Shown here piece after piece: positions 3,027 to 19,764 of a stretch of 64,000 nucleotides of DNA (positions are counted from its first letter, which is position 1; every line of letters begins with the position of its first letter). The stretch covers positions 2,790,001 to 2,854,000 of the forward strand of contig NZ_CP009241.1 of assembly GCF_000758525.1 (NCBI RefSeq), read 5' to 3'. Origin of the DNA: Paenibacillus sp. FSL H7-0357 (GTDB lineage Bacteria > Bacillota > Bacilli > Paenibacillales > Paenibacillaceae). Under the pieces are notes generated by a model. That model saw nothing but the letters and a program-made list of their open reading frames with translations, made no database searches and was not told the DNA's origin. The translations under genes and the position numbers were made by a program.

Positions 3027-3055
3027 TTGCACTTTACATCAAAAGGGAGTATATT
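3027..3055 (+). promoter_or_regulatory. SigmaA-type promoter of tRNA-Leu
   Basis: TTGCAC at 3027-3032 and TATATT at 3050-3055 are separated by exactly 17 bases. The expected start point near 3062 lies about 30 bases before the mature tRNA. Confidence 0.7.
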
Positions 3056-3092
3056 CTTAATTACGGTGATTAAATCGCTGTATACATAATAT

Positions 3093-3176
3093 GCGGTCAT
3101 GGCGGAATTGGCAGACGCGCTGGCTTCAGGTGCCAGTGATAGCAATATCGTGGAGGTTCGAGTCCTCTTGACCGCA
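3093..3176 (+). tRNA. tRNA-Leu, anticodon CAG
   Basis: An 84-base class II tRNA. The acceptor stem GCGGTCA (3093-3099) pairs with TGACCGC (3169-3175), followed by discriminator A. The anticodon arm is CTGGC-TTCAGGT-GCCAG, giving anticodon CAG. A long variable arm, as in leucine tRNAs, precedes the T-arm with GGTTCGAGTCC. The CCA end is not encoded. It is a single tRNA gene with its own promoter and terminator. Confidence 0.95.
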
Positions 3177-3193
3177 TCATAGTTTACAAACCA

Positions 3194-3219
3194 AACCCTT
3201 CTTCGGAAGGGTTTTTTAT
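3194..3219 (+). terminator. Intrinsic terminator of tRNA-Leu
   Basis: AACCCTTC-TTCG-GAAGGGTT hairpin with a stable tetraloop, followed by a T-run, 18 bases after the tRNA. Confidence 0.9.
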
Positions 3220-3395: not shown

Positions 3396-4091
3396 TTACG
3401 TACCTTGGGGGTCACATATTGACTCTTTCAAGCCTCCGTTCGGTTTATCTTGCTTGCAGCATAGTTGTGGGGGAGGAGTTTCATCGCCCTGTGTCATCCG
3501 ACTATACATATCCATCCCTTCTTTTGTTAAATGAGGCAATATAAGGCTCCAAAGGATGGAAAAGATATTTTTCTGCTTTGGAAGAAATTTTTGGAGAAGA
3601 ATTATTTCCTGTGTCCCATACATATTGATCGATAATAAAGAAATAGACAAATCTTCATATTGTCCGGCATATAATTCTTCTTTCATAATTCCATTATTAA
3701 CAAATAGGGTAAATGTATCGGTAAAAAGTGTATAGAAATCATTAACAACCTTAATTTGCATATTAGCTATCTCAGGATACAGCTTAGGCAATTCTGTGAA
3801 ACTGGAGAAATAAAAGAAATATTTTTCGCGGAATGCACTAAGGATTAAAAACTGCTGATTCAGCCCTTGGATAGAAACCTCCGCTGAGAAATTTAAGTAT
3901 TGATATTCTTCATACTGCCTTGCCATAACACCAATCATGAGGTCTTGTTTTTTTTTGAAATGGTATGTCAAATTGCCAGGACTAATATTTAGCGCATCGG
4001 AAATATCCCTCAATGTTACATATGCATATCCATTTTTATTAAATAATTCAATTGAAGTCTCAAGGATCTTATCTCTTAAATTATTATCCAT
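3396..4091 (-). CDS. TetR-family transcriptional regulator
   Basis: A 231-residue regulator. The N-terminal helix-turn-helix reads RDKILETSIELFNKNGYAYV then LRDISDALNISPGNLTYHFK, a typical TetR DNA-binding domain. The rest is a helical ligand domain rich in Phe and Tyr (about residues 60-200). The start at 4091 is set by AAGGAGA six bases upstream; a longer frame to 4124 lacks such a site. The gene is AT-rich compared with its neighbours, hinting at transfer. It diverges from the hydrolase locus, and a perfect palindrome lies between them (4293-4310), so it probably represses that locus and perhaps itself. Confidence 0.85.
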   Translation of the reverse strand: MDNNLRDKILETSIELFNKNGYAYVTLRDISDALNISPGNLTYHFKKKQDLMIGVMARQYEEYQYLNFSAEVSIQGLNQQFLILSAFREKYFFYFSSFTELPKLYPEIANMQIKVVNDFYTLFTDTFTLFVNNGIMKEELYAGQYEDLSISLLSINMYGTQEIILLQKFLPKQKNIFSILWSLILPHLTKEGMDMYSRMTQGDETPPPQLCCKQDKPNGGLKESICDPQGT

Positions 4092-4292
4092 GCCTATCTC
4101 CTTTATAGCGTTTGTGATATGCACTTGAAATCAAAAGCATTATATCACAAATTGGCCCTTCAAGCCGAAATAAGTAGCTTGATTAAGGATATGGAAGGAT
4201 TCAAGAGATGTTTGCCGAGAATCCTCAGCTAAGAATGATTTTCTCGAAAAAGATCAAAGTTGAATTAATGTACTCGTAGGAATACACTTACT

Positions 4293-4326: not shown

Positions 4327-4520
4327 ATGATAGAAGAAGTGAATCCAATTGCTGGAAGAAGGGAGGGTATCCATTGGTATGGAAATGCTGCACCTAAGGA
4401 TGTTCCCGTTGTTCTAATTAATCCAGGCTGGAAGGACTTGAAATTGAACAGGACACAGAAGCACACAGCTTATTGATTGACTGGTTTCAAGAAAAACTAT
4501 CAAATGGAGGCAAGCTATGA
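4327..4520 (+). pseudogene. Frameshifted or deleted gene upstream of the hydrolase
   Basis: A frame from ATG 4327 reads MIEEVNPIAGRREGIHWYGN and on to VPVVLINPGW, then loses sense and stops. In another frame sensible protein resumes (EGLEIEQDTEAHSLLIDWFQ, ending EKLSNGGKL) and its TGA at 4518-4520 overlaps the hydrolase ATG (ATGA). Such an overlap is typical of coupled genes, so a real gene probably ended here before a frameshift, an internal deletion or both. The two halves resemble the first strand and last helix of an alpha/beta hydrolase, but this is only a guess. Confidence 0.45.
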
Positions 4521-6223
4521 ATCCTCTACCTATCGACACTAACGAAAGAAGTAATCACTTTTATGAGCTTACCTGGAAGGAAGTAAAGATTCCGATGAGA
4601 GATGGGAATTATCTCGCCGCAAATCTGTATCAGCCTAATGCGGACGGGGATTTTCCTGTAATCATGACGATGTGTCCGTATGGAAAGGATACGCATTTCT
4701 CACAATTTGCTCCTGCTAACCCGACGGTTGCAATAGAATATACCCATTTGCAGGATAAAGGACCGTTACTAAGCTGGGAAACACCAAATCCTGAATATTG
4801 GGTGCCACAAGGGTATGCTGTATTGCGAGTAGATGAACGTGGTATCGGTAATTCTCCAGGGAAGCTTGATATATTATCAAGTGCTTTAAAGAAGGATTAT
4901 TATGATGCAATCGAATGGGCTGGAACGCAAGCCTGGAGCAATGGACGGATAGGACTGCTGGGCATCTCCTACTTGGCAATGAGCCAATGGGCTGTGGCAT
5001 CCGAACAACCTCCTCATTTAGCGTGCATCATACCTTGGGAAGGTACAGTAGATTATTATGCGGATTTCTGTTATCCGGGTGGAATTCAGGCAAACGGCTT
5101 TCTTTCATTCTGGTGGAAAAACGGTGTTTTGACACATCAATACAATCCCGGTGGAAGCCTCTCCGAGGAACAACTGCAGGACAATCGCATTGATTTCCCG
5201 GAGATGGTCAAAAACAATCCATTACGTGATCAATCATGGACGAATCGGTTCTCTGATCTAAGCAAAGTAGAGGTACCTTTATTATCCGCAAGCAACTGGT
5301 TTAGCGCCGGAATGCATACCCGGGGGAACTTTCTGGGATTTCAGAATGCAGCATCGGAGCACAAGTGGCTTGAAGTGCATATCGGCAGCCATGTTGGTGA
5401 ATTCTATACCGCTCAGGGTCGTGAGCTGCAGAAAAAATTCCTCGATTATTGGCTCAAGGGAATCGATACCGGCATAACGAGGGAGCCGAAGGTGAAGCTT
5501 GCCATTCCCCGCGGAGGTAATAGCTACACATGGCGCTACGAGAATGAGTATCCGCTTATGCGTACCCAATGGACTCGATTCTACCTTGATGCAAGCTCAA
5601 AGCTGCTTTCAGTGGAACTTCCGCAAGCCAAGAGCCAGCTTTGCTATGATGGCGATAAGGAGCGCGAGTCCAGGCACTGGGCCGAGCCCTTTATGGTGAA
5701 AGCATTCTCGAGAGAGGAAAACAACTCCAAGCGTATTCTGTTTGAAACTGCTCCGTTGGAGAACGAAACAGAGATTCTGGGGCCTATCAAGCTCCGCTTG
5801 TGGGCATCGTCAACTACAGATGATATGGACATTTTTGTATCTTTGCGCAACATTGACCCTCTTGGCAATGAGGTAGTTAATTCAGGAGCACTAACGGACC
5901 AATTCCCCATTAGCCAAGGCTGGCTACGCGCTTCCTTACGTAAAACGGATGATCAAATATCGGCGGAATATAAGCCCTACTACAGCTTCGATGAGATTCA
6001 GAAGCTGATTCCCGGGGAAGTCTACCCCTTGGATATAGAGATATGGGATAGCGCGATTGTTGTAGCTAAAGGAAATCGGTTGCTCCTGGAAATTGGCAGC
6101 CAGAATCAGAGCGGCTGCGCACTGCTGACTCAGACGGCGGATGACAGGGTTTGGGAAGCAGACGTTACTCTATATACAGGGGATGAATTTGATTCTTATT
6201 TATTGCTGCCGATCATACCCTAA
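4517..6223 (+). CDS. CocE/NonD-family hydrolase (peptidase S15-like)
   Basis: A 568-residue alpha/beta hydrolase of the X-Pro dipeptidyl-peptidase/cocaine-esterase superfamily. The N-terminal half has VKIPMRDGNYLAANLYQP, the RVDERGIGNSPG loop and the nucleophile elbow GISYLAMSQ (Ser near residue 150). A His in HIGSHVGEF (near 293) probably completes the triad. Residues after about 340 form the C-terminal jelly-roll domain typical of S15 enzymes. No signal peptide is visible, so it is cytoplasmic. GGAGG lies 6 bases before the ATG. Family members hydrolyse esters or amides; the natural substrate is unknown. Likely controlled by the divergent TetR protein. Confidence 0.88.
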   Translation: MNPLPIDTNERSNHFYELTWKEVKIPMRDGNYLAANLYQPNADGDFPVIMTMCPYGKDTHFSQFAPANPTVAIEYTHLQDKGPLLSWETPNPEYWVPQGYAVLRVDERGIGNSPGKLDILSSALKKDYYDAIEWAGTQAWSNGRIGLLGISYLAMSQWAVASEQPPHLACIIPWEGTVDYYADFCYPGGIQANGFLSFWWKNGVLTHQYNPGGSLSEEQLQDNRIDFPEMVKNNPLRDQSWTNRFSDLSKVEVPLLSASNWFSAGMHTRGNFLGFQNAASEHKWLEVHIGSHVGEFYTAQGRELQKKFLDYWLKGIDTGITREPKVKLAIPRGGNSYTWRYENEYPLMRTQWTRFYLDASSKLLSVELPQAKSQLCYDGDKERESRHWAEPFMVKAFSREENNSKRILFETAPLENETEILGPIKLRLWASSTTDDMDIFVSLRNIDPLGNEVVNSGALTDQFPISQGWLRASLRKTDDQISAEYKPYYSFDEIQKLIPGEVYPLDIEIWDSAIVVAKGNRLLLEIGSQNQSGCALLTQTADDRVWEADVTLYTGDEFDSYLLLPIIP

Positions 6224-6390: not shown

Positions 6391-6707
6391 TTACATGGTA
6401 CACTCGGTTTATTGCGGTGAATTTGCAGATATACAAATGATCGGTTACATCACCTCACCTGATGTTCATGAAGCGAATTACCAATTTGGCGCGTATAGAG
6501 ACCAGAAATATATACTAACCTCAGTCCTTGAGCAATCTTGAGATGCAGTGAGCTTTCTAGCCGCTGCTTCTTTTTTTGCCTGTCCGTTCCTCCGGTTCTT
6601 ATATGATCAGGTTTGTGAATATTGAATAACGTCACAATAATGACACAATATCTGTTCATTTTTTCCGGCAGAAAAACAGTTATACCTATTAGAGAGGAGG
6701 GGACGAG

Positions 6708-7307
6708 GTGGATGAAAGGGAATGGATTCGGCGGATTCAGGAAGGGGAAACCGAATATCTGACACCGCTGATTGAGCGGCACTACGCTGGCATCCAGAAG
6801 TATTGCTGCTGGCGGGTACGGAACGCGGAAGAGGCGAAGGATTTAACTCAAGAGACCTTTTACCGCTTCTGCCGCCATATTGAGCGCTATACTGACGCCG
6901 GAAAATGCCGTGCGTACTTATACACTATCGCCCGCCATCTATGCAACGATCATTTAAGGAAGGGGCAGCCGCTATCCCTGGAGGACGAGAGGGATGCAGC
7001 AGACTGGAGGGCTGCACAGCAAAGCAGCTCAATAGAAGAACAGGTGGAAAGAGAGCAGCTGGTGCATGAGCTGTTTGAGCTGCTGCCTGAGGCGCAGCGG
7101 GAACTGGTGTTTATGCGCTTTTGCCTGGATCTGACCTACCGTGACATTGCCCGCGTAACAGGAGTGAACGTGTGTATGGTGCAGTACCGGGTGAAGCGCG
7201 GGCTGGCTGTACTAAGAAGCCACTTGGAAAGGAGTGAACCCGTTGAACAAGAGATCAGAGCAAGCCATCGTCAACGCCCTAAGGAACTACCCCACGCCCC
7301 CCATTGA
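6708..7307 (+). CDS. ECF-type sigma-70 family RNA polymerase sigma factor (module 1)
   Basis: A 199-residue sigma factor with region 2 (residues 10-75, containing AEEAKDLTQETFYRFCRHIE and a DHLRKG end) and region 4 (about 112-165, LPEAQRELVFMRFCLDLTYR and DIARVTGVNVCMVQYRVKRG). There is no region 3, as in group IV (ECF) factors. The start is GTG 6708 behind GGAGGGG. The last 65 bases overlap the next gene, which encodes a membrane protein, so translation is coupled. Such factors are usually held by a membrane or cytoplasmic anti-sigma encoded next door. It heads a four-gene unit with an ABC transporter. Confidence 0.9.
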   Translation: MDEREWIRRIQEGETEYLTPLIERHYAGIQKYCCWRVRNAEEAKDLTQETFYRFCRHIERYTDAGKCRAYLYTIARHLCNDHLRKGQPLSLEDERDAADWRAAQQSSSIEEQVEREQLVHELFELLPEAQRELVFMRFCLDLTYRDIARVTGVNVCMVQYRVKRGLAVLRSHLERSEPVEQEIRASHRQRPKELPHAPH

Positions 7308-8025
7308 ACGGCAGCATCTTGAAGATACCGCCAGAGGGGCGGTGGAGGTGCTGCGCCAGAGACAAGCCGGACGGAGAACGTCGTTCGGAGAGTTCTATCT
7401 GGCCCAGCTTCGCTTCATCAGCTGGAAGGTATGGGCCGTGCAATTGCTGATTGTCCTGGGAATGGTGCTGTTACTGCGAAACGCCCTTCAGGAAATGGGA
7501 GAGAGTGTGCAAATCGTCATGATGGTCTCTATATCCGCACCTCTGCTGGTAATGGCTGGAATCCGTACTCTGACCCGTTCGCTTAGCTGTCATATGCTGG
7601 AGATAGAACTCAGCACCCGCCATCTCCTGGAGAAGCTGACGATGGTCCGCATGAGTCTGCTGGGGATGACGGATTTGCTGGGTCTGACCCTGCTGGCTGC
7701 GATATTAAGTGTTTGGATACATAGTGATGTTGCAACCATGCTGATCTATCTGCTTGTGCCTTTTAATTTAACTTGCCTCGGCTGCCTGTGGCTGCTCAAT
7801 CGGGTTCGCACCCCAAGCTGCGGATATTACTGCCTGACCTTCGCCGGCGTGGTGGCCTTGGTACAGATGATACTTGCCTTTACCCCGAACCTGTGGGTGT
7901 TTGAACCAGCAGCAATGGGAGTATGGCAGATGCTGCTGCTGGTGACAACCGCAGGAATAGCGCTGCAGGTACGCGGTTTGCGCAAGACTTGCCGGAGTCT
8001 GGAGACCGCTTCCAGCCTGATGTGA
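7243..8025 (+). CDS. Multi-pass membrane protein, putative regulator of module 1
   Basis: A 260-residue protein: about 60 hydrophilic residues followed by about six hydrophobic helices (for example WAVQLLIVLGMVLLL, LLGLTLLAAILSVW, LLLVTTAGIAL). TTG 7243 is preferred over GTG 7234 because AAGGAG sits 8 bases before the TTG and would overlap the GTG. The gene begins inside the sigma gene and is followed by the ABC ATPase. Its location is that of an anti-sigma factor in ECF operons, and the soluble N-terminus could bind the sigma factor. I see no recognised domain, so the role is inferred from context. Confidence 0.75.
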   Translation: MNKRSEQAIVNALRNYPTPPIERQHLEDTARGAVEVLRQRQAGRRTSFGEFYLAQLRFISWKVWAVQLLIVLGMVLLLRNALQEMGESVQIVMMVSISAPLLVMAGIRTLTRSLSCHMLEIELSTRHLLEKLTMVRMSLLGMTDLLGLTLLAAILSVWIHSDVATMLIYLLVPFNLTCLGCLWLLNRVRTPSCGYYCLTFAGVVALVQMILAFTPNLWVFEPAAMGVWQMLLLVTTAGIALQVRGLRKTCRSLETASSLM

Positions 8026-8085
8026 AATTACCGCAGCGCAGGCCGCTTGGCTACAGGGAGCATTGAATAAGGAGGGGTTCATAAC

Positions 8086-8979
8086 GTGTTGGAACTGACT
8101 ATAAATGAGCTAAGCAAGCGCTTTGCCGCGAAACAGGCGGTGAACGGCATTTCGGCCCGGCTGACCAGCGGTGTGTATGGTTTGCTCGGAGCTAACGGAG
8201 CAGGTAAAACAACGCTGATGCGGATGATCTGCGGCATTCTCAAGCCGACCTCGGGGATGATTCAGATGAACGGCCAGGAGATTGGCCGCATGGGGGAACA
8301 ATACCGCGATCTGCTGGGCTATATGCCTCAGGACTTCGGATATTATCCCGATTTCAGCGCGGAAGAGTTTCTGTGGTACGTCGGATCGTTGAAAGGGCTG
8401 ACCCTGAAGGCTTCGAAGGGGAAAGCCCGTGAACTGCTGCGCATGGTAGCTCTGGAGGAGGCGGCCCGCAAGAAAATCCGCACCTTTTCCGGGGGGATGA
8501 AGCAAAGGCTCGGCATCGCCCAGGCACTGCTGAATGATCCCCGCCTGCTGGTGCTGGACGAGCCAACGGCGGGACTGGATCCCAAGGAGCTGGTACGCTT
8601 CCGCAACCTTATAGCCGATCTGGCCCGCGATAAGATCATCCTCCTGTCGACACATATTGTGTCCGATGTGGAATATATCGCCGATCAGATTCTGGTGATG
8701 AAACAGGGTGCGCTGCTAATGAGCGGGACGGTAGAACAGCTGACAGCTACGATGGAGGGCAATGTCTGGTTATGCCATGTTCCGGCGAGGGAAGCGGAGG
8801 CGTGGAATGAACGGTACTGTGTGAGCAATCTGCGGCATGAGCGGGACCGGGTTGAGCTGCGTATTGTCTCTAAGGTCCAACCCGCAGCTCATGCAGTTTC
8901 GGTTTCACCGACGCTTGAAGACTTGTTTCTATACCATTTTCAAGATGAATCGGCTGCAGCGGCTGGCGAAGTCAAATAG
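8086..8979 (+). CDS. ABC transporter ATP-binding protein (module 1)
   Basis: A 297-residue ATPase with Walker A GANGAGKTT (near 35-43), signature FSGGMKQR, Walker B LLVLDEP followed by TAGLDP, and the switch His in LLSTHIVSD. The 80 C-terminal residues form a variable domain typical of drug/bacteriocin-type exporters (CcmA-like). It starts at GTG 8086 after GGAGGGG. The permease follows after 12 bases, so together they should make an exporter or an ABC-2-type complex in the membrane. It is similar in layout to the ATPase at 11408 in the second module. Confidence 0.92.
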   Translation: MLELTINELSKRFAAKQAVNGISARLTSGVYGLLGANGAGKTTLMRMICGILKPTSGMIQMNGQEIGRMGEQYRDLLGYMPQDFGYYPDFSAEEFLWYVGSLKGLTLKASKGKARELLRMVALEEAARKKIRTFSGGMKQRLGIAQALLNDPRLLVLDEPTAGLDPKELVRFRNLIADLARDKIILLSTHIVSDVEYIADQILVMKQGALLMSGTVEQLTATMEGNVWLCHVPAREAEAWNERYCVSNLRHERDRVELRIVSKVQPAAHAVSVSPTLEDLFLYHFQDESAAAAGEVK

Positions 8980-8991
8980 GAGGTGCAGTTT

Positions 8992-10230
8992 ATGGATATT
9001 CTGACCCGGTTTGAGCTCAGAAAGATCATGAGACGGAAATCATTTTTTATAGGCATAACACTTATAATCGTCGTGGCCTTATTAGGAGTATGGGCGCTCG
9101 TTTCGGGTGCGTACATAACGGACAAGGACGGCAATGATCTAAAAGGACTGGAAGCCATCCCGCTCCGAAAGGAATACAACCGCCAGCTAGCCGGACCGCT
9201 GACGATAGAGAAAATAGCGGCTGCAGTCAAGCAACATCAAAAAGTCATACATGATCCGAAAAACCTTAACGAGAAGGGGGAGCTCACAAATGAGGCTTAT
9301 GTAACCTACAAAGAGCAGAGTTATCAGATTGATACGTTGATCCGGTTTGCTTTTTCCCATTCCCGTGAATACGATCATTATATTATCGACAGCATGACAC
9401 CTAGTACTGCAAAGACCTTCTACCAGGAACGTCTCGATAAGGTGAAGGAGTACATAGACAGGGATTATACTCCCGGCAATGCTTCTGCCAAAGAGAATGC
9501 TTTTTTTATGCGGATGAATAAGTCCATTCCAGTCCCCTTCCAAATGGACTATGTAACCGGCTGGGAGAGTGTGTTCGAGAACCTGCAGTTTGTTTTATTG
9601 ATCAGTGCGTTTGTGATTGCGATTTGGCTTGCTCCTGTCTTTGCCGGTGAATACCAGAGCGGGGCGGATGCGATAATCTTGTCCTCCCGTTATGGCCGCA
9701 ATAAGGTGATTGCCGCCAAATTGAAAGCCGGTTTGATTGTCTCCCTTGGCTTGCTTGCTGTGGGATTAGGCACCTACACTCTCTTGATGCTTGGGATTTT
9801 TGGATTTGATGGGGGAAGCGCCAGCGTGCAGATGATCAAGCTTTTTGCCCCGGTTCCTTTCACGGTGTTTCAGACCTATTTATGGGCAATTCTTATTGGC
9901 AGCCTGGCCTGTCTGACCGTGGGGGCGGTGACGCTCTGGCTGTCCAGCCGGATGAGCACCCCATTTCCCGTTATCATTGTCATTGTCATTTTGCTGATCG
10001 GCCCGCTGTTTTTTCCGGCTAGCAAGAGCAGCCGCTTGTATAATCATATTATGAACCTGCTGCCTGGCAAAATGGTTGACGGCATTACGAGAGTAACCGA
10101 ATACGAAGGATATTCTGTGTTTGGACAGCTGATTCCCAGCTATAAGTTTGCTACAGGCTTTGCAATAATTGTTATTGCCCTGCTCCTGCCCTTTACTTAT
10201 CGCGCCTTTAAAAACCATCAGGTGGTTTGA
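8992..10230 (+). CDS. ABC-2-type transporter permease (module 1)
   Basis: A 412-residue membrane protein. One helix (FFIGITLIIVVALLGVWALV, residues 19-38) is followed by a large extracytoplasmic loop of about 160 residues and then five helices in the C-terminal half, the ABC-2 permease plan. The motif FAGEYQSGADAIILSSRYGR is typical of the family. ATG 8992 is chosen because AGGAGGT lies 7 bases upstream; a GTG at 8983 would overlap that site. Partner of the ATPase at 8086. A strong terminator follows at 10288. Confidence 0.88.
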   Translation: MDILTRFELRKIMRRKSFFIGITLIIVVALLGVWALVSGAYITDKDGNDLKGLEAIPLRKEYNRQLAGPLTIEKIAAAVKQHQKVIHDPKNLNEKGELTNEAYVTYKEQSYQIDTLIRFAFSHSREYDHYIIDSMTPSTAKTFYQERLDKVKEYIDRDYTPGNASAKENAFFMRMNKSIPVPFQMDYVTGWESVFENLQFVLLISAFVIAIWLAPVFAGEYQSGADAIILSSRYGRNKVIAAKLKAGLIVSLGLLAVGLGTYTLLMLGIFGFDGGSASVQMIKLFAPVPFTVFQTYLWAILIGSLACLTVGAVTLWLSSRMSTPFPVIIVIVILLIGPLFFPASKSSRLYNHIMNLLPGKMVDGITRVTEYEGYSVFGQLIPSYKFATGFAIIVIALLLPFTYRAFKNHQVV

Positions 10231-10287
10231 TAGGAAAAACTCAAGGTGCAGCTCTCAAGTTCCAAACGGAAGTTGTCAAAAAAGTAC

Positions 10288-10339
10288 GGATTCGCAGATT
10301 GCTGATGCAGCAGTTTGCGGACCCGTTTTGTTTTTTTTC
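10288..10339 (+). terminator. Intrinsic terminator after module 1
   Basis: A long, nearly perfect hairpin (about 17 base pairs counting G-U, loop ATG) at 10288-10324, followed by GTTTTGTTTTTTTT. It ends the first sigma/ABC unit, so the second one must have its own promoter. Confidence 0.85.
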
Positions 10340-10348
10340 GGGAGCACT

Positions 10349-10376
10349 GTAACTATTTCGGAGGCTTGGACGAATA
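10349..10376 (+). promoter_or_regulatory. Candidate ECF-type promoter of module 2
   Basis: TGTAAC at 10349-10354 and CGAATA at 10371-10376 are 16 bases apart. This resembles the -35/-10 pair used by ECF factors such as sigmaX and sigmaW of Bacillus (TGtAAC or TGaAAC, then CG-rich -10). Its position in front of a sigma gene fits autoregulation. Confidence 0.45.
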
Positions 10377-10450
10377 AGTAGTAGAAGGCTGCGGGAGAGG
10401 AGGGGATTCGGACGAACGATATCCAGAGAGGAAACAGACAGCGCTCCATT

Positions 10451-11149
10451 ATGGAGGATGAGGCTGCGGGTCACCCGGATGATGAGGCAGCCGTGCTGAT
10501 CAGGTTCCGGCAGGGAGAACGGGAGGCTTTTGAATGGCTGGTTCGTCAATACCGGCAGCCTGCGGTAGGGTTTGCCTATCATCTGACCGGGGATTATCAT
10601 ACCGCCGAGGATTTGGCACAGGACTCTTTTGCCTATCTGCTGGTGTATCCGGAGAGATTCGATACCCGCGCGTCTTTTAAAACCTATCTGTTCACAATCC
10701 TCCGCAACAAAAGCATAGATTCCTTGCGGAAGCGGCAGCGGACCCTGCCGGTTGAAGCAGGGAAGCGCAGGCGTCCCGATTCCTCCTTTTCAGGGGATTA
10801 CTCAGGAGATAACCTGCCTGAAGGAAACCGCATGCCGCCTCCCGGCAGGGAGGATCCCGAGCGGATGGCGATTGTGCACGAGGAGGACCAGGAGTGGCAA
10901 CGGCGTTTGCTTACGCTCAAGCCGGATTACCGGATGGCCGTGTATCTCGTTGATGTAGGTGAGATGTCTTATACAGAAGCGGCAGCTATTATGGGCCGTA
11001 CAACGGTGAGCTTCAAAGTGCTGCTGCACCGGGCCCGCAAGAAGCTGAGGCAGATATACGAAAAGGAGGAGTGGGATTGTGAAGCCAGCCGAAGAGGAAC
11101 AAGCGTTTCTAGAGGAAGTGTACCGGAAAGCCCGTCTGCTGGAGTATGA
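10451..11149 (+). CDS. ECF-type RNA polymerase sigma factor (module 2)
   Basis: A 232-residue sigma factor. Region 2 spans about residues 14-95 (FRQGEREAFEWLVRQYRQPA, HTAEDLAQDSFAYLLVYPER, LFTILRNKSIDSLRKRQRT). A Gly/Pro/Arg-rich linker of about 50 residues follows, then region 4 (LLTLKPDYRMAVYLVDVGEM, SYTEAAAIMGRTTVSFKVLL). No clear Shine-Dalgarno sits at normal distance before ATG 10451; GAGAGGAAA is about 18 bases away and the frame is open upstream to a stop at about 10382, so the start is uncertain. The 3' end overlaps the next gene by 71 bases. The layout resembles the sigY-yxlC operon of Bacillus. Confidence 0.87.
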   Translation: MEDEAAGHPDDEAAVLIRFRQGEREAFEWLVRQYRQPAVGFAYHLTGDYHTAEDLAQDSFAYLLVYPERFDTRASFKTYLFTILRNKSIDSLRKRQRTLPVEAGKRRRPDSSFSGDYSGDNLPEGNRMPPPGREDPERMAIVHEEDQEWQRRLLTLKPDYRMAVYLVDVGEMSYTEAAAIMGRTTVSFKVLLHRARKKLRQIYEKEEWDCEASRRGTSVSRGSVPESPSAGV

Positions 11150-11369
11150 CAAACGTGAGGCTGAGAAGGTGCAGAGAAACAGCCGGAAGCTCGACAGGCA
11201 AAGAAATACTAAGCTGGCGGGTATTGTGCTTACTGCGGTTGCTGTTTTTGTAATGATCAAGTTCGAAGTTATTGATGTAGTGTTGCTCGTCTTGCTGTCA
11301 CTCCTCCTGATCGGAATAGGACTGATGGTGGAGAACACGGAGTTTACCTGGGACCAGGAAAGCGATTAG
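11079..11369 (+). CDS. Small two-helix membrane protein, putative anti-sigma (module 2)
   Basis: A 96-residue protein with a charged N-terminal half (many Glu, Lys and Arg, probably helical) and two adjoining hydrophobic helices (LAGIVLTAVAVFVMI and VVLLVLLSLLLIGIGLMV). GTG 11079 follows AAGGAGGAG by 7 bases and lies inside the sigma gene. The size, position and soluble-then-membrane layout match small anti-sigma proteins such as YxlC of the sigmaY operon, but I see no diagnostic motif, so this is inference from context. Confidence 0.72.
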   Translation: MKPAEEEQAFLEEVYRKARLLEYDKREAEKVQRNSRKLDRQRNTKLAGIVLTAVAVFVMIKFEVIDVVLLVLLSLLLIGIGLMVENTEFTWDQESD

Positions 11370-11407
11370 TAGTAAGTAGTCAAAAGCATGTGAGGGAGAG
11401 GACCAGA

Positions 11408-12283
11408 ATGGAACTTGTAATTGAACAACTGACCAAAACCTACGGGAGTAAGCAGGCTTTAAACGGTGTCAGCTTCAAAGTAGGCGAAGGGATACACGGC
11501 CTGCTTGGTCCTAACGGGGCAGGCAAAACAACGCTGATGCGGCTGCTTGCAACTTTACTTACACCCACATCCGGCAAAGCAACGATCGGTGGAGTACCTT
11601 TGACGGACAAAGCGCAGATCCGCCAGCTGGTCGGTTATCTGCCGCAGGAATTTGCATTTTATCCAGGGATGTCGGTGCTTGAAGCGATGGATTATCTCGC
11701 ACTTTTGTCCGGGGTGAAGGGGCATTCGGAGCGGAAGCGGAGAATCGACGATTTGCTGGAGCAGGTGAACCTGACGGAGCAGCGCCGGACCAAGGTGAAA
11801 GCACTGTCCGGCGGAATGAAGCGCCGGCTCGGCGTGGCCCAGGCAATGGTGCATGAACCGAAGCTGCTGATCGTCGATGAGCCCACGGCAGGGCTTGATC
11901 CGGAAGAGCGGATCCGCTTTCGCCGGCTCCTCAGCCGGTTCTCTGAAGGGAGAATCGTCCTGTTGTCCACCCACGTTGTGGAGGATGTGGAATCCACCTG
12001 TGAGCAAATGACCGTGCTGCATAAGGGAAGTCTGCGCTATCACGGCAGAATCGGTGACCTGACGGGGGCTGCCGCCGGACGCGTCTGGACGGTGGAGCTT
12101 GACCGGGCGCAGTGGGAGCGGGACCGTGACCGCTTCCCTGTGCTGTCTGCTGTGCCGGAAGGCACAGGAATGCGCATCCGTGTTCTCGCCGATCAGCAGC
12201 CTTATCCGGGAGCGCAGCAGGCCATACCGTCTATTGAGGATGCCTATCTTTACCTGATGCGCAAGGAGGAGTCGTTCGTATGA
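11408..12283 (+). CDS. ABC transporter ATP-binding protein (module 2)
   Basis: A 291-residue ATPase: Walker A GPNGAGKTT, Q-loop GYLPQEFAFY, signature LSGGMKRR, Walker B LLIVDEP with TAGLDP, switch His in LLSTHVVED. ATG 11408 is chosen over GTG 11390 because a GAGGGAGAGG site lies just upstream. The stop overlaps the ATG of the permease (ATGA). It shares size and layout with the ATPase of module 1, although the two proteins are clearly diverged. Confidence 0.92.
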   Translation: MELVIEQLTKTYGSKQALNGVSFKVGEGIHGLLGPNGAGKTTLMRLLATLLTPTSGKATIGGVPLTDKAQIRQLVGYLPQEFAFYPGMSVLEAMDYLALLSGVKGHSERKRRIDDLLEQVNLTEQRRTKVKALSGGMKRRLGVAQAMVHEPKLLIVDEPTAGLDPEERIRFRRLLSRFSEGRIVLLSTHVVEDVESTCEQMTVLHKGSLRYHGRIGDLTGAAAGRVWTVELDRAQWERDRDRFPVLSAVPEGTGMRIRVLADQQPYPGAQQAIPSIEDAYLYLMRKEESFV

Positions 12284-13506
12284 TAGGGCTCATTGGTAAA
12301 GAGATTCGCATGATTCTGCGCAGTCTCGTCTTTTATGTATTTATACTAGTGGCCTGCTTCTTCTATTTCACCGAATATGCCGCAGAGCAGACCTGGAGCG
12401 AGCTTCGGCCTCCCGTTATGACTGAGCCGCAAAATGTGGGTCCCCCGGAACATCCTTTTTACGGCTGGAAGCTGCCCGGGAACACCTCTGAACTTGCTAC
12501 GCAAATGAGGAAAGAGATGGGCTGGGACCTGGATGCCGGTTCAACAACCAAGCTGAGAATCGGCTTTCCGCTAGAGAGCAAACTGGATAAGCAAGAAAAA
12601 GCTGCCCTCACCGAGGCTGCTTCCAAGCTGGACATCATTCTTAAAGATTCGGACAAGTACACGATGGAAGACGTTTACAAGGTTTCTGATGATTTGAACG
12701 AGCAACTTGGCGGGAGCAGTATGTACAAAAGAGGGATGGATGAATTCGGCTTTGGTATCGATAACTACGAGGAAGCGGTGAAAGCGCAGGAACAAACGCT
12801 TGTACGCTACAACGAGGTTGTAGAGGCCGGAGAGCTGCTACCCGGAGCCGCACGGTATTTCAGCGATTACCTCGCACTCCCGGCTGGTATCTTTCCGGTA
12901 TTCCTTTCGGCCTTTCTGCTGCTCCGTGACCGCTCCAGCCGAATGAGCGAGCTGATATACAGCCGCCGGGTTTCGTCATGGACCTACGTCGGTTCAAAGT
13001 TTATCGCGCTTGGGATCATGCTCTCCCTGATTTATCTTGTGCTTGCAGTTGCCGGCGGCTGGCAGACCGTAAATGCCCTGGAACTGAAGGGACAGACGGC
13101 GGAGGCGATTTTCCTCTTCCTTGGATACACAGCTTGGTGGCTGCTGCCTACAGTCTGGGCTTCGATTGCCTTCGGAATGTTCGGCTCTATGCTGTTCCGC
13201 CGGGGGATTGTGCCGATCGCCCTGCAGATCGTCTGGTGGTTTATTTCTGTGCTGCCGCTTATGGGCTCCTATGGGCTGTACAAGTTGATCATCCGCTTTA
13301 ACACGCCAAGGGACGCTGATTTATATAAAGGCTGGGTGGATGAGATCGCAATTAACCGCAGCTTCTACATTCTGCTTGCGGTGCTGCTGGCAGCCGGAAC
13401 CGCGCTGCTCTGGGAAAGAAACCGCAGCCAGGCGGATTCCGGATGGGTACGGGGGAACAAAACCTCTGCAAGAAAAGCCAAAACAGCCGCGGGGGAAGCC
13501 TCATGA
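12280..13506 (+). CDS. ABC-2-type permease (module 2)
   Basis: A 408-residue membrane protein. One N-terminal helix (residues about 15-30) is followed by an extracytoplasmic region of about 170 residues, then a cluster of helices (LPAGIFPVFLSAFLLL, KFIALGIMLSLIYLVLAVAG and others) and a basic tail. The motif RDRSSRMSELIYSRRVSSW corresponds to the cytoplasmic coupling segment of ABC-2 permeases. It is coupled to the ATPase before it and to the second permease after it by ATGA overlaps. Confidence 0.85.
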   Translation: MIGLIGKEIRMILRSLVFYVFILVACFFYFTEYAAEQTWSELRPPVMTEPQNVGPPEHPFYGWKLPGNTSELATQMRKEMGWDLDAGSTTKLRIGFPLESKLDKQEKAALTEAASKLDIILKDSDKYTMEDVYKVSDDLNEQLGGSSMYKRGMDEFGFGIDNYEEAVKAQEQTLVRYNEVVEAGELLPGAARYFSDYLALPAGIFPVFLSAFLLLRDRSSRMSELIYSRRVSSWTYVGSKFIALGIMLSLIYLVLAVAGGWQTVNALELKGQTAEAIFLFLGYTAWWLLPTVWASIAFGMFGSMLFRRGIVPIALQIVWWFISVLPLMGSYGLYKLIIRFNTPRDADLYKGWVDEIAINRSFYILLAVLLAAGTALLWERNRSQADSGWVRGNKTSARKAKTAAGEAS

Positions 13507-14135
13507 CAGGTCAATCACTCCGCGTGCTTGGTTGGTACAACCTGAAGCTGACCGCCCATTATTCGTGGCTGCTGTCCATCGCCCTGCTGTGCAGCGTGCA
13601 TTTCTTCATGGATCCTCAGCTCATGGAATGGGGAGATGTCGCCAAGCTGGGAGAACAATTGATCAGCTTCCTTGGCCTGATCGTGTACCCCCATCTGGCG
13701 ATGCTGGAGGAAGGCGGAATCGGTGAGGTGCTCTACGCCAAGAAGGTGCGGCATCACCCTATCTTTCTGTTTCGCTGGCTGTCCGTTACTTTGTTTATTT
13801 TCTTGATCATTGCCGTTTTTTTCACCAGCCTGCATTTGCGCGGCGCGGTCTTTGACCTATGGCCGATGATCGGCGGAGTTGCCATTACCGCAATGGCGAT
13901 CGGATCCGCAGGTATGACGGCCGCTCTATTACTCCGCAACATATCGGGCGGATACATTATCGGCTTTGCCTGGTATCTGCTCGACTTTATGACAAAGGGC
14001 CGTCTGACCGGACATTTTTTTCTGTTTGGGCTAGTGAAGGGCGGATGGGATCCTGACAAATGGCTGCTCGCCGGACTGTCATGCGCACTTGCCGTGTTCT
14101 GTGCCTTCCTGCTTCCGGCCCGGAGACTGGACTGA
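13503..14135 (+). CDS. Second membrane subunit of the module 2 transporter
   Basis: A 210-residue protein with about six hydrophobic helices (for example YSWLLSIALLCSVHFFM, FLGLIVYPHLAML, WLSVTLFIFLIIAVFF). The ATG overlaps the stop of the preceding permease (ATGA). It contains EEGGIGEVLYAKKVRHHPIF, a cytoplasmic segment similar in style to that of the first permease, so the two probably form a heterodimeric membrane channel. Last gene of the module; a terminator lies at 14345. Confidence 0.8.
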   Translation: MTGQSLRVLGWYNLKLTAHYSWLLSIALLCSVHFFMDPQLMEWGDVAKLGEQLISFLGLIVYPHLAMLEEGGIGEVLYAKKVRHHPIFLFRWLSVTLFIFLIIAVFFTSLHLRGAVFDLWPMIGGVAITAMAIGSAGMTAALLLRNISGGYIIGFAWYLLDFMTKGRLTGHFFLFGLVKGGWDPDKWLLAGLSCALAVFCAFLLPARRLD

Positions 14136-14344: not shown

Positions 14345-14386
14345 ACCGCCTTAAAGTCATTGTAGTGACTGAGAGGCGGTTTTTTG
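14345..14386 (+). terminator. Intrinsic terminator after module 2
   Basis: ACCGCCT and AGGCGGT enclose an inner AGTCA/TGACT stem, followed by six Ts. Confidence 0.85.
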
Positions 14387-14631: not shown

Positions 14632-17600
14632 TTGTCCGACAATCTTTTTAAATATCTGTATTTGCGGTCTTCTACAGGATTTGCAGTCGTGTCCATGAAG
14701 GATGGGACGATACAACTGGCCAACCCTGCACTGTGCAGTATGTTCGGGTATACGGAAGCGGAGTTTATGAACCTTCGGTATTTGGATATTTCCTGTACGG
14801 AAGAGAAAGACACAGCAGATCATGAGCAGGTTATAAACCTATTGCTGCAGAGCCCGGGTGCGGCTGTAGACAGTGAAAATCAATTTACACGCAAGAATGG
14901 TGAAGTCTTCTGGGTGGCACTGCATTTGTTTCTGACATTTGATGAAGCTGGTGGTACCCCTTTATATATGATTGCGGAAATGAAGGATATTACGGACCGC
15001 AAGCTGGCAGAGAAGAAGATACTCGAGGAGCATTATCTCTATAATCTGATTTCGCAGAATACACCGGATTTGATATCTCTCGCTGATCCTGAGGGTACGA
15101 TCCATTATGTTTCACCCTCCATTGAACGAGTGCTGGGATACTCTACCCATGAAATGATCGGTAAAAAAAGACCGGATTACTACCATGAGGAAGACGCATT
15201 GGAGATGACCGAGCAGGGACTGCTCTATTCGGACAACGATGTGTTTACCCGCAGGGTGCGCCATAAAGACGGGCATTATCTTTGGATTGAAAGCTCTTTC
15301 CAGATCATGCGCGACGATAAGGGTGGGGTTCAGCAGGTCTTGACGGTTGCCCGGGATATAACGGTCCGGAAGAAATACGAGGACATGCTGGCGAACGCCC
15401 AGTTTCTGGCCCGGATGGGCTCGTGGGAATGGGAGGCCTCCAGCCAGCAGTTGATTGCTTCCAAGGAAATGCGCTGTATCTTTGGCCCTACCGATGATAT
15501 TAGCAATCATACCGTCTATGATCCGCTGCTCATCAAGGAATGTGTGGAGCCTGAAGATCTGCCCAGGGTTATGGAGGCGCTGCTTGATTCGGTGAAACAC
15601 GGGACGAAAGGCGGAGCGGTCTTCGGAATTACGGCGGCCGACGGCATGAAGAAATTTATCGATGCCCATTGGGAAGTGGCTCAGGATTCCTCAGGTAACA
15701 TAAGACAGATTAGCGGAGTGGTTCAGGACATTACAGCTCATCGGGAAATGGAGCAGCAGCTTCGGGAAAGCGAACAGAACTACCGGCTCATTTCGGAAAA
15801 TTCCCAGGATTTCATTTCCCGCAATGCAACCGATGAGGAAGCAACCTATCTGTATGCCTCTCCGGTGAGTCTGCAGATGTTCGGATATACACCTGAAGAG
15901 ATGGTAGGCACCGGGGGAATGGATTATATTCATCCTGAGGATGCAGCCCGTGTCCAGGCCTATCTGCGCAGCAGCATGAAAGGGGAAAGGCTTGAGCCTA
16001 TCGTCTTCCGGTTTCTGTGTAAAGACGGCTCTTACATCTGGACAGAAACGACCCTGCGCCACATTGGTACCGGTGCTGGAGGGGATACGGAGATAGTCGG
16101 CATCACCCGCGACATCTCGGAGCGGAAGCAATATGAGCTCAAAATGCTGGAGAGCGAAAACCGCTATAAGTCTTTGTTTGAATATAACCCTTCGGCCATC
16201 AGCGCGATGGATTTGCAGGGACGGATCCAATCGCTGAATGCCAGCCTGCAGCATTTGACGGGTTATTCCTGTGAAAGCCTGCTGTTGTCAAACTACTGCG
16301 ATATCTTTGATCCGGAAGAGCTGGATTTTGTGGCAGAACGCTTTCTTGTTGCTGCAAGCGGTGTAGCTCAAACCTTCGAGAGCAGACTGCTTCACCGGGA
16401 TGGGCATGTTGTCGAGGTCAGCATGATTTATGTGCCGATAATGGTAGACAGCCGGGTCGTGGGCGTATTTGCCATTACGAGCGATATTACGGAGCGCAAA
16501 CGGCATCTGGAGCAGATTGAGAAGCTCAGCTATGAGCATGCGCTGATTCTGAATTCCGTTTCAGAAGGTATTTTTGGCATGAATCTTGAGGGTGCGACGG
16601 TATTTATCAATCCGGCGGCGTCCGCAATGCTTGGCTACGAAGCCGGGGAGCTGGCGGGTGAGATCAGGCTGCCTACGATCGAGCAGACGTGGCTCGACGG
16701 AGAGCCATATCCTGGAGGGCGGAAGAATCTGAGGGAATGGCTGGAGGATCATCTCACCTATGATGAGAAAGAGGGCGTATTCTGGAGACAGGACGGTTCA
16801 AGCTTTCTCGTTAAATACCGGATGACCCCCCTGTTCGATAACGGTGTACGGAAGGGTGTTGTGGTTGTGTTCCGCGACATTACCGAAGAGAAGGCGATTG
16901 TACGGGCTAAGGAGTCTGCCGAGCAGGCGGACCGGGCCAAATCTGAATTTCTGGCCATTATGAGCCATGAGCTGCGCACACCCATGAACGGGATTATCGG
17001 CATGGCTGATTTGCTTGAAGGCACCGTGCTTGATGAAGAACAGCAGTATTATACGCAGATTATTACCAAAAGCGGTGGGACGCTGCTGCATATTCTCAAT
17101 GAGGTGCTTGATTTCAGCAAAATTGAAGCGGGCATGATGACGATTGAGCTGCAAGCTGTGGATCTCCGCCAGGTTGTATCGAACGTCACAGATATCTTTT
17201 ATCCCCGTATCAAAGAGAAGGGGCTCTCGCTAAACTGCGAGCTGGATGACGCGCTGCCACCGCTGGTGTTAACGGATGAGACCAGACTGCGCCAGATTCT
17301 TGTAAACCTGGTCGGCAACGCGGTGAAATTCACCGAAGAAGGGGAAATCGGGATTCAAGTGAAGCTGGTGTCATCCAGAGATTCCGGCGAGTGTGTTCTT
17401 AAATTTACCGTGACGGATACTGGGATCGGTATTCCGCTGGACAGCCAAGGGCTGCTGTTCCAATCCTTCTCCCAATTGCATCCATCGATCAACCGCAAAT
17501 ATGGCGGAACAGGTCTGGGACTGGCCATCAGCAAGAAGCTGGTGGAGCTGCTGGGTGGAGCGATAGGCGTGGAGAGCCGTGAAGATGAAGGCTCGGAGTT

Positions 17601-18099
17601 CTTTTTCACCCTCCATACCACTCTTCCAAGAGAATTGTCCTCCGCGGGCGGCGCTGCTGCGTTCCCGGCTACGGAACGGCGGGAGAACCGTAGCAAGTAC
17701 AAAGGCTCCTCCAGCGGGGTGTACGGTCCGCTCTCGATTCTAGTTGCCGAGGATCATCCTGTGAACCTGAGATTGCTGCAGGCGTATCTCAAGAAGCGGG
17801 GATATGATTCCGATGTGGCGTCCAACGGGGAAATGGCGGTCGAGGCCGTGCTCACCGGGCAGTATGATCTGGTATTTATGGACATTCAGATGCCGCTCAT
17901 GGATGGGATTGAAGCGACAGCCAAAATCCGCGAGGAGCTTGGATTGTCCCCGGTCATTATCGCCACTACAGCTTTTGCCCGCAAAGAAGACAAAGAGATG
18001 TGCCTGAGGGCGGGCATGCAGGATTTCATCTCCAAGCCGATCCGGCCGGAGGAGCTGGACAGGGTGCTGAGGGAATGGTCGGCTTATTCCCGCAGATAG
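14632..18099 (+). CDS. Hybrid sensor histidine kinase with six PAS domains and receiver
   Basis: A 1155-residue cytoplasmic kinase. Six PAS/PAC units follow each other up to about residue 765, each closing with a DIT/DIS motif such as MKDITDRK, ARDITVRK, VQDITAHR, TRDISERK, TSDITERK and FRDITEEK. Then come HisKA with SHELRTPMNG (phospho-His 779), the HATPase domain (VNLVGNAVKF, DTGIGIP, GTGLGLAIS) and a receiver (phospho-acceptor Asp 1084 in FMDIQMP, Lys in ISKPIRP). No membrane helices are present, so signals must be cytoplasmic or pass through PAS ligands. TTG 14632 is the start, with GAGGAGG 8 bases upstream. No separate response regulator lies nearby. Confidence 0.93.
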   Translation: MSDNLFKYLYLRSSTGFAVVSMKDGTIQLANPALCSMFGYTEAEFMNLRYLDISCTEEKDTADHEQVINLLLQSPGAAVDSENQFTRKNGEVFWVALHLFLTFDEAGGTPLYMIAEMKDITDRKLAEKKILEEHYLYNLISQNTPDLISLADPEGTIHYVSPSIERVLGYSTHEMIGKKRPDYYHEEDALEMTEQGLLYSDNDVFTRRVRHKDGHYLWIESSFQIMRDDKGGVQQVLTVARDITVRKKYEDMLANAQFLARMGSWEWEASSQQLIASKEMRCIFGPTDDISNHTVYDPLLIKECVEPEDLPRVMEALLDSVKHGTKGGAVFGITAADGMKKFIDAHWEVAQDSSGNIRQISGVVQDITAHREMEQQLRESEQNYRLISENSQDFISRNATDEEATYLYASPVSLQMFGYTPEEMVGTGGMDYIHPEDAARVQAYLRSSMKGERLEPIVFRFLCKDGSYIWTETTLRHIGTGAGGDTEIVGITRDISERKQYELKMLESENRYKSLFEYNPSAISAMDLQGRIQSLNASLQHLTGYSCESLLLSNYCDIFDPEELDFVAERFLVAASGVAQTFESRLLHRDGHVVEVSMIYVPIMVDSRVVGVFAITSDITERKRHLEQIEKLSYEHALILNSVSEGIFGMNLEGATVFINPAASAMLGYEAGELAGEIRLPTIEQTWLDGEPYPGGRKNLREWLEDHLTYDEKEGVFWRQDGSSFLVKYRMTPLFDNGVRKGVVVVFRDITEEKAIVRAKESAEQADRAKSEFLAIMSHELRTPMNGIIGMADLLEGTVLDEEQQYYTQIITKSGGTLLHILNEVLDFSKIEAGMMTIELQAVDLRQVVSNVTDIFYPRIKEKGLSLNCELDDALPPLVLTDETRLRQILVNLVGNAVKFTEEGEIGIQVKLVSSRDSGECVLKFTVTDTGIGIPLDSQGLLFQSFSQLHPSINRKYGGTGLGLAISKKLVELLGGAIGVESREDEGSEFFFTLHTTLPRELSSAGGAAAFPATERRENRSKYKGSSSGVYGPLSILVAEDHPVNLRLLQAYLKKRGYDSDVASNGEMAVEAVLTGQYDLVFMDIQMPLMDGIEATAKIREELGLSPVIIATTAFARKEDKEMCLRAGMQDFISKPIRPEELDRVLREWSAYSRR

Positions 18100-18192
18100 G
18101 CTGAAGAGCCATACGGGAGTCAGGAATGATTGGCCTCAATTGAGGTTATTCTGAAAGAATGAAGGTTGAAAAGCAAGGAGGGAGGGCAGCTA

Positions 18193-18381
18193 GTGAGAGT
18201 GTTGTTGTATGTGCTGTTTGCGATCCTTTACCTGCTGACCACGTTCTTCGGCCTGGGTCCCGTACTGTTCGCTGACGGCTCTGCCAAGGAACGGATCCTT
18301 ACGCTGATTGTCGTGTTGCTGATTTATACGGCGATCACTGTATGGATGCGCAGTCTGTTGAAGCGGCTGGGCAAGCATTGA
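18193..18381 (+). CDS. Small two-helix membrane protein
   Basis: A 62-residue protein with two hydrophobic segments (LLYVLFAILYLLTTFFGLG and ILTLIVVLLIYTAITVWM) and a basic tail ending KRLGKH. GTG 18193 is selected because AAGGAGGGAGG lies 7 bases before it; an upstream in-frame TTG lies within poor context. It sits between the kinase and the NusG-II gene. Function unknown. Confidence 0.65.
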   Translation: MRVLLYVLFAILYLLTTFFGLGPVLFADGSAKERILTLIVVLLIYTAITVWMRSLLKRLGKH

Positions 18382-18459
18382 CAAAGTCTGCTGCGCTGAC
18401 TATATTTAGATTATTCGTAATTTTTACGTATAAATATAGCCAGCGAGAGGGTAACGCGA

Positions 18460-18864
18460 TTGCAAAAGATGAAACGCGGCGATTTTGTTATTATTGTATT
18501 GGTTTTTCTTGTAGCCGGCTCCATCTATGGAGTCAAATGGATGAATAACCGGAATGAGCATTATGCACAAGGGGATTTGAAAGCCGTTATTACAGTGAAC
18601 GGCAAAGAGTATAAAACTGTTTCATTGACCAAAGAAGAGCAGATTATTGAGATGAAGACTAAGTTCGGCCACAATATATTAAAAGTGTATGATTATGGAA
18701 TTCAGATGACGTATTCTGATGCGCCGCTGCCGATTGCCCTGGAGATGGGCTTTATTTCCAGACCGAGGCAGCAGATTATTTGTATTCCGGCCCGGCTGAT
18801 GGTTGAAGTCGTCAACCCCGACAGATCCATTGATGATGATGATGAGCTGGACGCAGTTATTTAG
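18460..18864 (+). CDS. NusG domain II-containing membrane-anchored protein
   Basis: A 134-residue protein. Residues 8-25 form one N-terminal membrane helix (FVIIVLVFLVAGSIYGV). The rest resembles the NusG_II beta-barrel family: AVITVNGKEYKTVSLTKEEQ, then FISRPRQQIICIPARLMVEV near the end. Such proteins are secreted or anchored outside the membrane, and their role is unknown. The start is TTG 18460 after GAGAGGG. The 3' end overlaps the convergent TIGR03943 gene by 8 bases. Confidence 0.75.
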   Translation: MQKMKRGDFVIIVLVFLVAGSIYGVKWMNNRNEHYAQGDLKAVITVNGKEYKTVSLTKEEQIIEMKTKFGHNILKVYDYGIQMTYSDAPLPIALEMGFISRPRQQIICIPARLMVEVVNPDRSIDDDDELDAVI

Positions 18865-19729: not shown

Positions 19730-19764
19730 CTCTGGCCCTCCTGAAAGTTTTGTGAGAAATAGCG

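Follow-up and report, generated by a model that had tools for sequence, protein, structure and literature searches.

Are two sigma factor and exporter operons that lie side by side copies of one ancestor, and how would their sigma factors be kept in check? The question is raised by a 64,000-nucleotide stretch of the Paenibacillus sp. FSL H7-0357 genome (contig NZ_CP009241.1, positions 2,790,001 to 2,854,000; hereafter the window), a genome of 7.69 Mb in a single contig. Here, module A (6708-10230) and module B (10412-14135) each encode an extracytoplasmic function (ECF) sigma factor, a membrane protein and an ATP-binding cassette (ABC) exporter. Coordinates are those of the window, and features are on the forward strand unless stated otherwise. 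We consider it reasonably probable that the modules are separate units joined by insertion of module A, that the sigma factors are held by the membrane proteins of the overlapping genes, and that sigma B is self-driving and translated from an ACG start codon. Three features of this picture are of more interest than the rest: a conserved ACG start, a promoter with a single site, and an anti-sigma candidate that is permease-like.

Origin of the adjacent modules

Relatives were sought in a same-genus set of 100 genomes that includes the source genome. The module A membrane protein was matched in 19 of these, the main permease of module B in 26 (distant kin counted) and the 96-amino acid small membrane protein of module B in 22. 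After removal of the source genome and of weak matches, 17 relatives with module A and 20 with module B were kept. G020 was dropped from the module A count (E 1.8e-4), although the sigma and ATPase genes are present there. The module B set is without G023 (two internal stops) and G201 (no sigma B match). Also left out were G002, G015, G017, G026 and G030, in which the main permease is matched at 29-34% only, and a second match of this kind in G048. The module B relatives include P. ihuae, P. tepidiphilus and P. piscarius, and all seven named loci are from Paenibacillus.

An initial annotation of the window took the adjacent pair to suggest an ancient duplication and possible cross-talk of the sigma factors and anti-sigma proteins. 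We consider this very improbable. Eight genomes carry both modules, and the source genome is the only one in which they are neighbors. In the other seven they lie apart: by ~379 kb in G083, 421 kb in G084, 354 kb in G086 and ~2.6 Mb by the shorter way in G046 (if that contig is circular). In G051, G091 and G092 they are on separate contigs. The membrane parts also differ. No similarity between the membrane proteins encoded at 7243 and 11079 was detected by BLASTP or by profile comparison, and none was detected between the main permeases of the two modules (BLASTP E 0.46, and profiles).

The same general architecture of the modules does speak for duplication, and two further results weigh against separate origins. 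The ATPases are 40% identical and belong to the same subfamily, and when the two sigma factors are constrained to be sisters, the log-likelihood falls by 19.4 units (p-AU 0.073, approximately unbiased test), so that sisterhood is disfavoured and formally not rejected. The sigma factors are nonetheless separate in the tree. This tree includes 43 of 46 sigma factors of the source genome (those of 150-300 amino acids were kept) and eight orthologs. Sigma A stands apart, and sigma B joins two other sigma factors (support 96/87 and 90/90). ATPase A scores 238.7 bits against ATPase B and is closer to two paralogs in the region of 4.08-4.09 Mb (272.5 and 269.4 bits); it groups with these paralogs with support of 85 in a tree of both modules, eight orthologs and 26 of the 86 other matches in the same genome. 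This tree omits both parts of an ATPase that is split (L194 and L198).

The history of the locus points in the same direction as the unrelated membrane parts. The variable interval is bordered on the left by a gene for tRNA-Leu(CAG) (3092-3178, identified with ARAGORN) and on the right by a gene for a PAS hybrid histidine kinase (14632-18099), which adjoins module B in 18 of 20 relatives. ARAGORN also located tRNA-Leu(CAG) upstream of module B in the stretches from 12 of the 20 relatives. Here, ~7 kb separates the tRNA gene from module B. This block consists of a gene for a TetR-type regulator (3396-4124, reverse strand, PF00440), a gene for an S15-type (X-Pro dipeptidyl-peptidase-like) hydrolase (4517-6223, PF02129 and PF08530) and module A. 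In P. ihuae, the tRNA-Leu sequence, which includes a masked run (blastn match to window 3042-3217), ends ~0.1 kb before the module B promoter. Thus, tRNA and module B are present there with no module A between them, and the TetR gene was not seen at the corresponding place. Based on this comparison of loci, we conclude that a block with module A was likely inserted between the tRNA gene and module B.

Other rearrangements were found in the same interval. G045 has the tRNA-Leu gene, module A, open reading frames (ORFs) of 128 and 676 codons, and genes for PAS kinase, DUF1980 and ArsP_1, and it lacks module B. The remaining 16 module A stretches gave no tRNA genes. In G050 (L158 ~7677-7908), the module B promoter and Shine-Dalgarno sequence survive. 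They adjoin a small permease fragment (residues 32-89), the only part of the module that is matched, with the PAS kinase gene still downstream. We read G050 as a case of module B loss through internal deletion. In our reading, such modules are gained and lost in the interval from tRNA-Leu to the PAS kinase. Duplication is rejected on the basis of this history and the unrelated membrane parts, and neighboring look-alike operons need not be duplicates. Separately, genes for the PAS hybrid kinase, a NusG_II-domain protein, DUF1980 and an ArsP_1 permease (14632-20754) are grouped beside module B in most relatives.

The promoter of module B

An ECF-type promoter, TGTAAC-N17-CGAATAA, is located upstream of sigma B (10348-10377). 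This promoter-like element is present 5' of sigma B in every one of the 21 same-genus loci (the 20 relatives and the window). The same promoter occurs in G343, which is from another genus and has a sigma factor that is 46% identical. The exact promoter with a 17-base spacer was found at one site in the source genome, that of module B, and a site with an 18-base spacer is located at 5.64 Mb. A promoter of this type is absent at module A, which speaks against duplication with cross-talk; the data do not suggest that sigma B acts at module A.

Across the 100 genomes there are 41 exact sites, of which 21 are at module B, one is at the G050 remnant, four are elsewhere in the 21 genomes with module B, and 15 are in the 79 other genomes. 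Sites away from the module thus occur at 0.19 per genome in both sets, which is the background level. Since the exact promoter occurs once in the genome and off-module sites are at background, sigma B likely serves its own operon and few or no others. We infer from these sequence comparisons that sigma B reads its own promoter. All of these counts are of exact sites, which is a limit on the claim of so narrow a target range.

The translation start of sigma B

The initial annotation placed the start of sigma B at ATG 10451. Comparison of start regions makes ACG at 10412 the more likely start, and we conclude that translation probably begins there. A strong Shine-Dalgarno sequence, GGAGAGGAGG (10394-10403), is followed by GGATTCGG and then by this ACG. 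An in-frame ACG is located 8 or 9 nucleotides past AGGAGG in 17 of the 21 loci. The spacer varies by one base between lineages, and the 30-37 codons from ACG to the sigma domain are in frame in all cases. There are two changes of the ACG state on the sigma tree, and the best reading is a single gain and a single loss. Pairing of the Shine-Dalgarno sequence with the assumed 16S rRNA tail reaches -22.9 kcal/mol in the case of ACG, stronger than for any other of the ten starts compared; ATG 10451 has -5.0 kcal/mol. The range over the 17 loci with ACG is -16.4 to -22.9 kcal/mol.

Alternatively, the ACG could be part of another RNA or DNA element, with sigma B starting at a codon that differs among species (GTG, ATG or a near-cognate). 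We consider this unlikely. In 15 of the 17 ACG loci there is no in-frame canonical start within 40 nucleotides past the Shine-Dalgarno sequence, and in five there is no canonical in-frame codon before residue 20. G029 has TGA in frame immediately 5' of ACG and its next canonical codon is residue 55; in G092 the next is residue 51. Moreover, no alternative start is found at a conserved position. Several observations do favor a variable start and weigh against ACG. Initiation at ACG should be weak. Four of the 21 loci lack this codon and have ATG 15-18 nucleotides past the Shine-Dalgarno sequence, and two of the 17 loci with ACG have GTG directly 5' of it that could serve as start. A leader ATG is in frame in six loci. 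There is also no third-position excess after ACG in the ten close pairs compared, and therefore the codon-position test neither supports nor kills an ACG start.

Two other candidates were considered for the start and rejected. The leader ATG just past the promoter is in frame in G048, G058, G008, G041, G094 and G080, six loci of the 21, and it is absent or out of frame in others, for example G086. The internal GTG at residue 15 is not conserved (GTA, ATG, ATT or ATA elsewhere). The starts given for relatives in databases vary, and include CTG in P. ihuae, ATA in P. tepidiphilus and GTG or ATG further in for others. The P0010 database protein begins at the leader ATG and is read through the Shine-Dalgarno sequence. 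In G343, ATG follows closely behind GGAGAGGG. If ACG is the true start, public annotation misplaces the start of sigma B in relatives, this would be a natural sigma factor throttled at translation initiation, and the start would keep what is likely a self-switching exporter at a low setting.

Gene content and the overlap of sigma and membrane protein genes

The ORFs and Pfam matches agree with the initial annotation in gene positions and order. Terminator-like hairpins with T runs are present between the modules (10286-10338) and after module B (14346-14386), so there are two coherent, separately terminated units of sigma factor, membrane protein and exporter. Module A encodes the sigma factor (6708-7307; Sigma70_r2 PF04542 59.3 bits, r4_2 PF08281 43.9 bits), a membrane protein (7243-8025), an ABC ATPase (8086-8979; PF00005 110.7 bits) and a permease (8992-10230). 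The permease gene is given from ATG 8992, and the ORF can also open at GTG 8983. Its product matches ABC2_membrane_2 (PF12679) at 21.4 bits, under the 27.2 cut-off; this weak match and its place in the operon suggest that it is part of an ABC-2 exporter.

Module B encodes sigma B (10412-11149 from the predicted ACG start; PF04542 and PF08281), a 96-amino acid candidate anti-sigma factor with a GTG start (11079-11369), an ABC ATPase (11408-12283; PF00005 115.7 bits) and a main permease of an ABC-2 Pfam family (12280-13506; PF12698 46.5 bits against a cut-off of 31.6). Also present is a gene for a small, second permease-like membrane protein (13503-14135) that has no Pfam match and stays beside module B in 20 of 20 relatives. 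Alignment A3, the basis of the module B model, includes 12 of the 20 relatives.

Both sigma factors have regions 2 and 4, with PF04542 and PF08281 scoring above their cut-offs in each, and pass TIGR02937 for ECF sigma factors (cut-off 42.9 bits; sigma A 83.6, sigma B 88.5). Neither reaches the cut-off of 194 bits for SigY (NF007216; sigma A 80.9, sigma B 58.1) or that of 147.95 bits for the SigM subfamily (TIGR02950; sigma B 98.5, sigma A 71.4). The membrane proteins encoded at 7243 and 11079 give no convincing Pfam match. The motif of zinc-type class I anti-sigma factors, given as Hx3Cx2C in the literature (PMC7406223), was not found in either of these two proteins.

In both modules the sigma gene overlaps the membrane protein gene that follows, by 65 bases in module A and 71 in module B, as claimed in the initial annotation. 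The inference of conserved coupling holds in part. When projected from the alignments, the overlap is 65 nucleotides in 16 of 17 module A relatives and 56 in one, and it is 38 nucleotides in 17 of 20 module B relatives and 35 in one, with a gap of 16 nucleotides in two. Thus, overlap is kept inside each family, and the likeness of 65 and 71 is due to chance; the overlap of 71 found here results from a longer sigma tail.

The candidate anti-sigma factors

The protein encoded at 11079 is predicted to have a helical tail of ~45 residues and two membrane helices. The product of the gene at 7243, which has a TTG start behind AAAGGAG, was described simply as a membrane protein. That description is now corrected to a predicted ABC-2 permease-like fold behind the first 48 residues: a cytosolic tail of 48 residues is predicted, followed by a six-helix permease-like domain that matches ABC-2 domains in model comparison. 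Residues 1-48 are likely the anti-sigma part. Against this assignment of the fold, Foldseek E-values for the protein are not significant. Profile comparison with the small module B permease and with the module A permease detected no similarity. In G099 (L062 1618-1627), the codon aligned with the start of this protein is other than ATG, GTG or TTG, and the closest canonical codon is a GTG three codons upstream.

A sigma gene adjoins the 7243-type membrane gene in 17 of 17 same-genus relatives, and all 12 further loci that were checked have a sigma A homolog next to membrane genes of the module A kind. Both the sigma overlap and the cytosolic tail persist down to ~31-33% identity. These constant associations argue against the possibility that the protein is a normal permease component that does not restrain the sigma factor, with sigma A instead under promoter-level control, for example through a regulator on upstream repeats. 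That explanation is plausible if somewhat less than probable, and it is favored by the ABC-2-like fold itself and by the region 5' of sigma A. The upstream alignment revealed a conserved block there (6632-6699) that consists of TCAC-type repeats, a T run, GTTATAC and a Shine-Dalgarno sequence. The three TCAC-type repeats are ~11 and 13 bases apart and are kept in most aligned orthologs, and a loose pattern of the block has one occurrence in this genome. The repeats are reminiscent of response-regulator (PhoP-type) boxes.

Proposed regulation

In the reading that we prefer, each sigma factor would be held inactive by the membrane protein encoded by the next, overlapping gene. In module A the anti-sigma factor would resemble a permease subunit and carry a cytosolic tail, and in module B it would be a separate small membrane protein. 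Sigma B would drive its own operon from TGTAAC-N17-CGAATAA, and probably little else. The ACG start behind an unusually strong Shine-Dalgarno sequence may keep sigma B scarce, and anti-sigma B, with its canonical GTG start, may be made in excess. A point against such an excess is that the Shine-Dalgarno sequence of anti-sigma B (-12.2 kcal/mol) is weaker than that of sigma B, so the excess would derive entirely from the difference in start codon. Low sigma synthesis together with enough of the holder would leave the operon off.

No outer sensing domain was seen in the candidate anti-sigma factor of either module, and therefore the signal may arrive through the membrane or come from the exporter itself. 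A substrate that engages the exporter or the membrane could cause the holder to free the sigma factor, and module B would then raise expression of its own operon and make more exporter. More tentatively, we suggest that sigma B has a single target and that its amount is set by a natural ACG start codon retained in a Paenibacillus clade, and that the module A anti-sigma factor is a permease subunit that releases its own sigma factor on contact with substrate. If the permease-like protein does hold sigma A, a transporter would itself be the anti-sigma factor, and the sensing route would be very short.

Related genes elsewhere in the genome

Sigma factor neighborhoods were surveyed at 46 of 47 places in this genome. 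An ABC ATPase gene is located at most 2 kb downstream of the sigma genes at C1 6615404 and 3645400, which with modules A and B makes four of the 46 examined. Five near-identical sigma genes (branch lengths 0 to 0.05) occur within ~55 kb (C1 1647902-1703041). A relative of ATPase A is split over two frames (C1 5701739-5702550; 45% and 43% identity) and is likely a broken gene. The nearest paralog of ATPase A (L200 5433-9941, ~4.08 Mb) is encoded together with a permease-like ORF of 532 amino acids, and next to them is a divergent gene pair for a response regulator and a histidine kinase (named here by reading). Because this paralog adjoins a regulator/kinase pair, the ATPase A subfamily also accompanies two-component systems.

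Comparison with known systems

Searches of the open-licence PMC literature gave no recognised account of such a module or of an ACG start in a bacterial sigma gene. Comparison is with systems that share some of the features.

The Bacillus subtilis sigY-yxlCDEFG operon consists of an ECF sigma gene, genes for small membrane regulators, and genes for an ABC ATPase and permease. The kinship with sigmaY/yxl operons proposed in the initial annotation holds for the general layout, as both modules share the order of sigma factor, membrane protein, ABC ATPase and permease. It does not extend to the sigma factors, which are far under the SigY cut-off, or to the membrane proteins, which lack a convincing Pfam family. 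Module A also differs in having a permease-like protein in the place of the anti-sigma factor. One report (PMC11466899) gives the function of a YxlF2G2 transporter as unknown.

Conserved non-canonical starts with extended Shine-Dalgarno sequences occur in infC (AUA), ccpN (AUA) and cvfC1 (AUU) of Staphylococcus aureus, and reporter output from these AUA and AUU starts is ~10-30% of that from AUG (PMC13009471). Sigma B is similar in having a poor start codon and a long Shine-Dalgarno sequence that are kept across species. It differs in that the codon is ACG, with a mismatch at the middle base, the gene encodes a sigma factor and use of the codon is predicted.

In form, the tail of the module B protein encoded at 11079 resembles the short helical sigma-binding part (<50 residues) of a known system, although this protein has two predicted membrane helices.

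Bce-type flux-sensing exporters work with intramembrane-sensing kinases. The modules described here may be similar, in that an exporter is proposed to signal to a regulator lacking any outer domain. They differ in that the regulator would be a pair of sigma and anti-sigma factors, with a proposed sensing step.

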